Origin: Actinomycetota bacterium
GTDB taxonomy: Bacteria; Actinomycetota; Actinomycetes; S36-B12
Assembly (NCBI GenBank): GCA_016870195.1
Contig: VGCC01000013.1
Location: forward strand, 1 to 50,115
Direction: 5' to 3'
DNA length: 50,115 nucleotides
Part shown: piece after piece, positions 1 to 4,547 of the stretch
Numbering within the stretch: the first letter of the stretch is position 1
How the letters are laid out: each line of letters begins with the position of its first letter
Translations under genes and position numbers: made by a program
Notes under the pieces: model-generated
Told to the model about the DNA's origin: nothing
The model's database searches: none
The model's input: the letters and a program-made list of their open reading frames with translations, nothing else

Positions 1-534
1 ATCATCGATATCGATATCCGTATCGGTCTCGATAGTCTCGACGTCCACCACATCATCGATGTCAATATCGATGTCTACGTCCACATCGACATCTCCGGGA
101 CCGACGAAATCAATATCCGGATCCGCGCTCGACTGCGGTGCCGAAAGTCCGGACCTACCGGGGCGGTCGAAGACTCGGACGACCACTGTGCCGTCGATGT
201 CCTCTGACTCCACGGTGCGCGTCGAGGGGAATGTGACCAGGAATGCGCGCTCGAGGGTGGGGCGGGGTTCATCCCGCAGACGCATAGCAAAGATCGGATC
301 GACGGCCGCGCGCTCCTGGGCGTAAGTCTCGATCTCTGCGGCGGCTGGCTGTGGGCGAGTGGCGCGCACGGCGGCCGAGATCGCGGGCCCGCGTCCGCTC
401 GCAATCAGCGGTGCGATTGTGTCGGGCACTCCGGCCTGCGCCAGTGCCGTGGCGAGATCGCTCTGGGCATCCCGAAGGGCATGGGCGTCCAGGCACGTGT
501 TGATCAAGAACTCTTCCACGGTGGTGACCGACAC
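1..534 (-). CDS. Putative split-borosin precursor with acidic D-V/D-I repeat tail (partial)
   Basis: The frame opens at a GTG at 534 preceded by AAGGAG six bases upstream and stays open to base 1, so the C-terminus lies outside the window (178 codons seen). Residues about 5-50 look like a small helical domain (VEEFLINTCLDAHAL, then a Gly turn and LIASGRG) with the spacing of the peptide-binding domain of bacterial split-borosin precursors. Residues about 55-135 are Ala/Arg/Glu-rich and include a beta-like stretch (RAFLVTFPS, GTVVVRVFD). From about residue 140 the chain becomes an alternating acidic/beta-branched tract (GDVDVDVDIDIDIDD, then VVDVETIETDTDIDIDD). It lies 29 bases downstream of a borosin-like methyltransferase gene on the same strand. 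I infer that it is the methylated substrate; otherwise it is an unknown acidic protein. Confidence 0.55.
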   Translation of the reverse strand, partial: MSVTTVEEFLINTCLDAHALRDAQSDLATALAQAGVPDTIAPLIASGRGPAISAAVRATRPQPAAAEIETYAQERAAVDPIFAMRLRDEPRPTLERAFLVTFPSTRTVESEDIDGTVVVRVFDRPGRSGLSAPQSSADPDIDFVGPGDVDVDVDIDIDIDDVVDVETIETDTDIDIDD

Positions 535-563
535 GGTGCTCTCCTTCACAGACGTCGACGTGC

Positions 564-1361
564 CTATTCTCCGTCGCGCTCACGCAGTATTGCGAGGGTA
601 TCCGATTGTGGTGGGGGTGCGCCCAACGGCGGGATGAACATCGTGGAAATCGCGGTGAGGTCGGCCTGCTGCACCTGTGCCACGGGGCGCACCACGACTC
701 GCGGGTGGGCCAGGGGGTGCTGCGCGGCCTCGTAGATGACCACCTCGTGCTCCGGCGAGTACAGCTCCACAAGCCGGGAGATGAGCAGGTCCAGGTGTCG
801 GCCGTCGAAGCCGGCGCGGTTGAACCCGTGGTCTCCCACCAACCCCACCTGCCACAGGATGAGGGGGACGTGGATATCGATGGTCACCGCACGCGTGATG
901 AAGAAGGTGGCCTCGTAGGTCTGGAGACCGTGGGCCGCCGGGTCCACCTCGAGGTCCGCGATGAGGCAGTCCTCTGCGGAAACCCCGGGCAACATGCGGG
1001 CCGGGTACCCCAGGTCGCGCAGTTCTTGGATGGCAACGAATGTGGGGTTCACAAAGACACCGGGGTGCCCATACATCACCACGACCACCTCACGCCCCTC
1101 ACAGACGTGCCAGACCATCCGATCCGCCATAGCGCGATACGTCTCTCGGCGCGGGCGATCCTGGCCGTAATAGACGTGCAGGTCTTCGATCCGGGGGTTT
1201 AGATCGCGAATGAAGCCGTCGGTGACAGCGTCAGCCGCACAGATCAAGACCATGTCCGCGGCGCGGATATGCGCTTGTGCTTCGAGTGTCAGGTGTGCCA
1301 CGGATTTAATGCCCGAGCCGACGGCTGTCAGTGAGCCACGACGGTCCTCGTCTGCCACCAT
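564..1361 (-). CDS. Tetrapyrrole-methylase-fold SAM methyltransferase, borosin alpha-N-methyltransferase-like
   Basis: 265 residues. The sequence tracks the bacterial borosin backbone N-methyltransferases (SonM type) end to end. It begins with LTAVGSGIKSVAHLTLEA, has the Arg/Tyr-rich catalytic-loop region YYGQDRPRRETYRAM (about residues 64-78), the SAM-binding loop YGHPGVF (about 96-102), LPGVSAEDCLIADLEVDP, and the late segments LWQVG and HEVVIYEA, ending in STMFIPP. True cobalamin or uroporphyrinogen methylases do not carry this combination. Borosin enzymes methylate backbone amides of a precursor peptide, here probably the downstream repeat protein encoded 29 bases away. The ATG at 1361 has GAGAGG upstream. 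A diphthine-synthase-like or orphan tetrapyrrole methylase is the alternative. Confidence 0.75.
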   Translation of the reverse strand: MVADEDRRGSLTAVGSGIKSVAHLTLEAQAHIRAADMVLICAADAVTDGFIRDLNPRIEDLHVYYGQDRPRRETYRAMADRMVWHVCEGREVVVVMYGHPGVFVNPTFVAIQELRDLGYPARMLPGVSAEDCLIADLEVDPAAHGLQTYEATFFITRAVTIDIHVPLILWQVGLVGDHGFNRAGFDGRHLDLLISRLVELYSPEHEVVIYEAAQHPLAHPRVVVRPVAQVQQADLTAISTMFIPPLGAPPPQSDTLAILRERDGE

Positions 1362-3068: not shown

Positions 3069-4547
3069 GACCGGTTCACCCTTGCGGGTGCGCTGGCGGG
3101 GCCGCTTGGACTTCTTCTCCCGGTCCTCGCGTGGGCGCTCGCTTTTCGCGCGCTGCTCGGTGGGGCGTTTCGGCTTGTCACGACCCTTGCCCGACTTCTT
3201 CCCGGTCTCGCCGATGTCCTCAACCGCCTCGGCGGTGAGTCCTGCGCGGGTCCGCTTGTCCTTGGGCAGTTTCCCGGTGGTCCCGGCCGGAATCTTCAAG
3301 CCCGCGTAGACGTGTTCGCTGGTCGAGTACGTCTCGATCGGATCCTTGAAAGGCAACTTGAGTGCGCGATCGATCATCTGCCAGCGCGCCACGTCTTCCC
3401 AATCCACGAGCGTCACGGCGACGCCGGAGGCCCCCGCGCGGCCCGTCCGCCCAATCCGGTGGAGGTAGGTCTTCTCATCATCCGGGCATTCGTAATTGAC
3501 CACGTGCGTCACGTCGTCGACGTCGATGCCGCGGGCGGCCACGTCCGTGGCGACGAGCACATCGACTTTGCCGGAGCGGAAGGCGCGCAACGCTTGCTCG
3601 CGGGCACCCTGTCCGAGGTCACCGTGCACGGCGCCGACGGCGAAGCCACGCTCGGTGAGCTCGTCCGCGATCTTCTGCGCCTTGCGCTTGGTGCGCGTGA
3701 AGATCATCGCGAGGTGTCGTCCCTCTGCTTGAAGGATCCGCGCGACGAGTTCCACCTTGTCCATCGGATGTGCTCGCCACACATGCTGTTCGATGGCGTC
3801 GACTGTCGCGTTGTCATCACCGGGTTCCGATGCGCGGATGTGGATCGGTTGTCGCATGTAGCGCCGCGCGAGAGCAACGATCTGCCCGGGCATCGTCGCG
3901 GAGAACAGCATCGTCTGCCGTTCCGTGGGAAGGAGGTCGACGATGCGTTCGACGTCGGGAAGGAATCCCATGTCGAGCATCTCGTCTGCTTCATCGAGAA
4001 CGAGAACGCGCACGTGACTCAACACGAGTGATCCGCGTGTTGCGAGATCGATGATGCGGCCGGGTGTTCCGACCACCACATCGATGCCGGCCGTGAGCGC
4101 GTCTATCTGGGGCTCGTAGGCACGGCCACCGTAGATCGCGAGAACACGCATGCCCTTGATGCGACCGGCGCGCTCGAGGTCGGTGGCCACCTGCAGGGAC
4201 AGTTCGCGTGTGGGGCAGACGACGAGGGCGTGAGGTGCCCCGACACCTGGCTCGCTCGGATACTCGGGTGCAAGGGGTGAGGTCAAGCGTTGAAGCAGCG
4301 GGATCCCGAATCCGAGTGTCTTCCCGGTGCCGGTCTTGGCTTGTCCGATCAGGTCTTTGCCCTCGAGGGCGAGTGCCATGCACATCTGCTGGATCGGGAA
4401 CGCGTATTCGATGCCATCGGCTGCCAGGGCCTCGACGATGGACTTCTCGGCGCCGAGTTCCGCGAACGTGGGGGCCGAGGTGGGGTCAACTGTGCTCAGA
4501 ACTTCTCCAAGTCTCTCGCGCGGTGAGTGTCGCGCGGCGTCATGCAC
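3057..4547 (-). CDS. DEAD-box ATP-dependent RNA helicase
   Basis: About 496 residues with the full motif set: Q-motif (TFAELG then FPIQQM), motif I AKTGTGKT, Ia PTREL, Ib TPGR, II DEAD, III SAT, IV-like IFTRTKRKAQ, V ATDVAARGID and VI HRIGRTGRAG. The C-terminal tail is rich in Lys, Arg and Glu, typical of RNA-binding extensions of RhlE/CshA-type helicases. It probably remodels RNA in ribosome assembly or mRNA decay. The frame extends to an ATG at 4598 that overlaps the divergent start codon. I prefer the GTG at 4547, because a TACAGT -10 box (4563-4568, minus strand) lies between the two. The 3' end overlaps the convergent ParA-like gene by 12 bases. Confidence 0.92.
   Translation of the reverse strand: MHDAARHSPRERLGEVLSTVDPTSAPTFAELGAEKSIVEALAADGIEYAFPIQQMCMALALEGKDLIGQAKTGTGKTLGFGIPLLQRLTSPLAPEYPSEPGVGAPHALVVCPTRELSLQVATDLERAGRIKGMRVLAIYGGRAYEPQIDALTAGIDVVVGTPGRIIDLATRGSLVLSHVRVLVLDEADEMLDMGFLPDVERIVDLLPTERQTMLFSATMPGQIVALARRYMRQPIHIRASEPGDDNATVDAIEQHVWRAHPMDKVELVARILQAEGRHLAMIFTRTKRKAQKIADELTERGFAVGAVHGDLGQGAREQALRAFRSGKVDVLVATDVAARGIDVDDVTHVVNYECPDDEKTYLHRIGRTGRAGASGVAVTLVDWEDVARWQMIDRALKLPFKDPIETYSTSEHVYAGLKIPAGTTGKLPKDKRTRAGLTAEAVEDIGETGKKSGKGRDKPKRPTEQRAKSERPREDREKKSKRPRQRTRKGEPVSGQ

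Follow-up and report, generated by a model that had tools for sequence, protein, structure and literature searches.

A split borosin-type RiPP pathway with a two-domain leader and an Asp-X core predicted in an actinobacterial family

The window, by which we mean the whole 50,115-base stretch of DNA that was analyzed, begins with two genes on the minus strand that very likely belong to a split borosin RiPP pathway. Its precursor would combine a borosin-binding-domain (BBD)-like and an NHLP/proteusin-type leader domain with a long Asp-X core, while the docking, methylation, export, and product of the pathway are inferred from the genes and models described below. The methyltransferase (564–1361, minus strand) and the precursor (1–534, minus strand) are encoded by separate genes, as in split borosins (type IV-like, "class 3"). 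The pairing of the two is not due to chance, because two further genera of this family, represented here by the genomes G135 and G034, have orthologous pairs.

Precursor, leader, and core

About 178 codons of the precursor gene are visible, and the gene is incomplete because base 1 of the window is the end of contig G000:C13 (50,115 bases) in the source genome G000, a 2.1-Mb actinobacterial assembly. The contig breaks within the repetitive core, which may well be a reason for the break. The gap between the methyltransferase stop and the precursor start (535–563, minus strand) contains the Shine–Dalgarno-like element AAGGAG at 541–546. The likely start codon is GTG at position 534, which has this element 6 nt upstream and agrees with the N termini of the relatives, and with this start the spacing of 29 bases given in an earlier note on this DNA holds; an alternative GTG at position 549 is likewise open.

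The visible part is orthologous to the complete precursors of G135 and G034, and the three share a leader of about 120 aa with 36 to 63% identity. From sequence comparison and modeling, this leader is predicted to be a BBD-like domain and an NHLP/proteusin-type domain in tandem. Domain 1 (358–525, minus strand) corresponds to a helical bundle of five helices at residues 5 to 59 in the AlphaFold model of the G034 precursor, which was built on three sequences, and SonA chains dominate the PDB fold matches of this model in Foldseek. The BBD-like helices that the earlier note had read at the start of the downstream protein are recovered. The top match of the whole precursor model was the proteusin DprE2 (probability 1.00), followed by many SonA chains, all at E-values above 0.1; as the output holds no aligned query residue ranges, the fold matches were assigned to the domains by sequence tests. 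Domain 1 of G034 gave z-scores of 5.5 (SonA), 5.5 (Sinorhizobium meliloti), and 8.9 (Bradyrhizobium) against BBDs. The window copy scored weakly, from −0.4 to 4.0 over four BBDs (1.7 for SonA and 4.0 for Bradyrhizobium), and the hhalign match of the domain to BBDs was also weak, at only 26%. No resemblance of domain 1 to NHLP peptides was detected by sequence comparison.

Domain 2 (166–348, minus strand) is nitrile-hydratase-like. It matched true NHLP precursors at 94% in hhalign (E = 8.7e-8), with z-scores of 6.7 to 10.9 across all three precursors and of 6.7 to 9.3 for the window copy, and gave no sequence signal to SonA. TIGR03793 matched the G135 ortholog with an E-value of 0.002, short of its curated cut-off, and the modeled domain consists of three helices and two strands. 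The helical bundle of proteusins has been reported to resemble the C-terminal domain of fungal borosin proteins (PMC10858898), so that the two leader domains may be distantly related. True NHLP-type precursors also occur elsewhere in the same actinobacterial order, at L040 (G135:C136) and L038 (G097:C426), the latter as three tandem copies beside an apparent radical SAM gene. On the Sinorhizobium meliloti plasmid psymA, an NHLP-like peptide and a nitroreductase-like gene were observed (L043:1267–1698 and 3614–3913); they precede a type IV borosin pair by about 2 kb, which places both leader types in one neighborhood.

The core (1–123, minus strand, incomplete at the contig end) alternates Asp with mostly Val, Ile, or Thr. 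The 42 residues visible in the window include 17 Asp and 11 Asp–Asp spacings of two (shuffle mean 4.0, maximum 11), the 53-residue core of G135 has 23 Asp and 19 such spacings (shuffle maximum 14), and the 58-residue core of G034 has 24 Asp and 19 spacings (shuffle maximum 15), these shuffles addressing residue order and not function. Since the Asp and Val codons of the cores are a mixture of synonymous codons, the pattern is not a plain expansion of a DNA repeat. Each complete precursor continues for 51 to 56 aa after the main D-X run and ends in a conserved tail, W-x(3)-W-x(2)-H-x-A-x-W-x-SRD. The earlier note had proposed backbone N-methylation of a protein-sized substrate; a putative substrate gene does adjoin the methyltransferase, but its product is better described as a RiPP precursor in which a leader of two domains is followed by an Asp-X core, incomplete in the window.

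The methyltransferase was found in three of 166 genomes of the order, each from a different genus of one family and including the window genome. None was detected elsewhere in the phylum among 396 genomes drawn, 395 genomes of the class yielded one distant and different methyltransferase, and the methyltransferase was not found in phages. Similarly, the precursor leader was not found beyond the family of the window, neither on plasmids nor in the 395 genomes of the class. In both G135 and G034, the methyltransferase is followed by the complete precursor and then by a double ABC exporter, a fusion of over 1,100 aa with ABC_membrane and ABC_tran domains, in which a domain search found no C39 peptidase; the G034 methyltransferase is divided over two contigs. 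The two loci match the public MAG contigs CAMAVT010000012.1 and JAUHZW010000166.1. The first of these (L020) was deposited as Bifidobacterium breve, evidently a mislabel, and belongs to the actinobacterial family of the window. Neither the rest of the precursor nor the ABC gene turned up in the G000 assembly, which was searched for the core pattern, with the exporter of G135, and with a profile of the whole precursor. Weak profile matches in G015 and G043 were rejected as PT-rich linker repeats in another reading frame, and one in G079 as a simple dinucleotide-like repeat.

The fate of the modified chain allows a second reading, which we regard as possible and rather unlikely, namely that the methylated core stays attached and the product is a large acidic protein that carries the modifications, may bind metal, and releases no small peptide. 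No GG-type cleavage site was found directly before the core in the precursors, and this reading would also fit the exporter without a C39 peptidase domain, the conserved tail, the core charge of about −23, and the cross-phylum cores described below, which lie mid-protein with about 180 aa following. However, most RiPPs are cleaved, the protease may be encoded elsewhere in the genome, and the exporter implies that something is released.

Asp-X cores on other carriers

Methyltransferase fusions of about 740 aa are present in Mycetohabitans, Aquimarina, a flavobacterium, Bryobacterales, Hahella, and a Williamsia MAG, and a somewhat longer one is found on an Azospirillum plasmid. The gene directly upstream of each fusion encodes a protein of about 620 to 750 aa with a mid-protein D-[VIT] core of 70 to 86 aa. 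The fusion enzymes form a clade separate from the actinobacterial methyltransferases, and their carriers have no detectable similarity to the actinobacterial leader. In our reading, L022 to L027 are putative type VII/VIII borosins, which fits the published descriptions. Clusters with D-X cores span four phyla: Pseudomonadota, Bacteroidota, Acidobacteriota, and Actinomycetota.

The G034 core aligned in register with five of six carriers, for which only 0 to 2 of 500 D-unit shuffles were as good, as against 229 of 500 for L046. The match of the G135 core was weak (7 to 53 of 500 against five carriers and 167 of 500 against L046). D-unit shuffles gave no in-register similarity for the incomplete window copy, and such similarity is thus not claimed for the window itself. 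These results bear on the suggestion, to which we give a low probability, that the D-X repeat is a low-complexity stretch with a linker or structural role, the methyltransferase acting on something else. Repetitive acidic stretches are common, and the core profile also matches unrelated PT-rich linkers in another frame. Nevertheless, the clusters of related methyltransferases (Mycetohabitans, Aquimarina, Hahella, Bryobacterales, Williamsia, and Azospirillum) have D-X stretches in the adjacent carrier, and the register shared by G034 with five carriers argues against a mere linker.

Genes for 2OG-Fe(II)/StrG-like oxygenases lie near borosin methyltransferases (L007:15421–16125, minus strand; L042:6237–6953; L023:9237–9881; and L046:6316–7014), beside the fusion enzymes, the Burkholderia arboris enzyme, and the G034 enzyme, from which the oxygenase gene is directly divergent. 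Their recurrence by borosin methyltransferases in unrelated bacteria suggests a second modification of the core. A search of G000 and G135 found no such oxygenase, and that of G034 was found as a positive control.

Two further loci were observed. On the Burkholderia arboris plasmid, an unannotated gene of 308 aa just downstream of the borosin methyltransferase (L042:5363–6289) contains a TTEV-repeat segment that may be a further core of acidic repeats. An IMG/VR contig classed as viral, with phage-like neighbors, encodes a BBD-like N terminus, an acidic stretch, and a borosin methyltransferase on one chain (L028:4428–5792), as in type 0 borosins.

The methyltransferase and the proposed pathway

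The 265-aa protein encoded at 564–1361 (minus strand) belongs to the borosin family of SAM-dependent backbone (alpha-N) methyltransferases; this assignment draws on sequence and model comparisons, and methylation itself is predicted. The motifs YGHPGVF, PRRETYRAM, HEVVIYEA, and STMFIPP, from which the earlier note had proposed a borosin N-methyltransferase in place of a corrin or heme methylase, are all present, and comparison with SonM and OphMA supported the proposal, the best matches being borosin enzymes and not a cobalamin or diphthine methylase. In phmmer searches of the PDB, the E-values were 3.6e-60 for dbOphM, 2.6e-59 for OphMA, and 1.4e-46 for SonM, compared with 1.3e-3 for the best corrin enzyme; the corresponding bit scores were about 200 for borosin methyltransferases and 21 for the corrin enzyme. 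The best 50 Foldseek matches of the AlphaFold model (9-sequence alignment, pLDDT 77.6, pTM 0.59) are all borosin methyltransferases, comprising chains of OphMA, dbOphMA, SonM, and MroMA. Global TM-scores to these matches are only about 0.5 with an rmsd of 16, indicating that the model has probably misplaced its domains relative to one another and that the Foldseek E-values reflect local structure and sequence.

Residues Tyr65, Arg71, Tyr75, and Tyr97 correspond to Tyr58, Arg67, Tyr71, and Tyr93 of SonM, respectively, and Phe103, Trp170, Gln171, and Glu150 of the SonM lock network are matched as well. This mapping and the comparison of methyltransferase clades used a SonM sequence whose numbering agrees with the published one; the phmmer result is independent of it, and no conclusion hangs on it alone. 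Mutation of the four SonM residues reduces activity (PMC8429565). It is extremely improbable that we are dealing with an ordinary methyltransferase of tetrapyrroles (corrin/porphyrin) or diphthine and an unrelated gene downstream. Pfam does give TP_methylase (PF00590) as the sole match, and NCBIfam gives weak matches to YabN and corrin enzymes, but PF00590 also matches the borosin-type fusion L023, and the phmmer scores and Foldseek matches speak against a corrin or diphthine methylase. In addition, the Tyr and Arg residues for substrate binding are conserved, and in three genera a D-X precursor accompanies the enzyme.

In the split borosin pathway that we propose, the BBD would dock the precursor on the methyltransferase dimer, as SonA docks on SonM, and the enzyme would then move along the core from the N to the C terminus, methylating backbone amides. 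SonM methylates SonA at Leu63 and Ile65 (PMC8429565), and because this spacing is that of the D-X core, the most likely sites are Val, Ile, or Thr at every second position. Some methylation of Asp is possible. KchMA carries as many as 11 methylations, most of them on nonpolar residues and some on Asp (PMC11395268), which makes the positions in the D-X core a guess. Domain 2 of the leader probably serves to bring the precursor to a second protein. To judge by gene position, the fused double ABC transporter of the relatives probably exports the modified chain.

Neither split borosins nor cores with alternating acidic residues are new. The tandem of BBD and NHLP/proteusin domains has no description in the accessible literature, a scope outside which the main borosin classification papers lie. 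It is conceivable, and we put it forward tentatively, that these loci represent a hybrid RiPP class in which the tandem leader directs two modification systems to one long (Asp-X)n core, along which about 20 backbone N-methyl groups would alternate; as unrelated carriers in at least four phyla bear this core, the core, and not the carrier, would then be the conserved entity. Few products of bacterial split borosins are known, and the relatives supply a complete and compact set of enzyme, precursor, and exporter with an unusually regular core, which makes possible a direct test of whether borosin enzymes methylate alternate residues along an extended core. Moreover, the tandem leader suggests a way of combining two RiPP systems, and the sharing of a core pattern by unrelated carriers from four phyla points to a common function of alternating Asp/N-methyl peptides.

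Comparison with known systems

The closest known arrangement is the type IV system SonM–SonA of Shewanella oneidensis (PMC8429565), which has the methyltransferase and precursor in separate genes, an enzyme of 263 to 265 aa with the same catalytic residues, an N-terminal five-helix bundle like the BBD-like one here, and i, i+2 hydrophobic sites in SonA that fit the D-X core. However, the precursor here has about 240 aa compared with about 75 in SonA, and the present system adds an NHLP/proteusin domain, an acidic alternating core of about 50 aa, a conserved C-terminal tail, and a fused ABC exporter. The fungal borosins OphMA and dbOphMA are the highest-scoring solved structures for the methyltransferase (E of 1e-60), whereas these fungal enzymes have clasp and core fused on one chain.

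Type III borosin cores alternate acidic and other residues (PMC11395268). Types III, VII, and VIII (PMC11395268; L022–L027 and L046) share alternating acidic cores and a related methyltransferase clade with the present system, and for G034 also the in-register core and a nearby oxygenase. The clusters analyzed here differ in the methyltransferase fusion of about 740 aa and in a carrier of about 620 to 750 aa, with no detectable similarity to this leader and with the core inside. In types VII and VIII, about 160 aa of the carrier follow the core, while only 51 to 56 aa do so in G135 and G034.

Proteusins such as MprE7 and DprE2 (PMC10858898) share the nitrile-hydratase-like helix-helix-helix-strand-strand layout of domain 2. 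In the present precursor, however, a BBD-like domain precedes it, no GG lies just before the core, no C39-type peptidase was found in the exporter, and the methyltransferase is borosin-type, whereas that of pythonamide is FkbM-like. Because it lacks both the GG boundary and an exporter with a C39 peptidase, the precursor was not filed as a proteusin.
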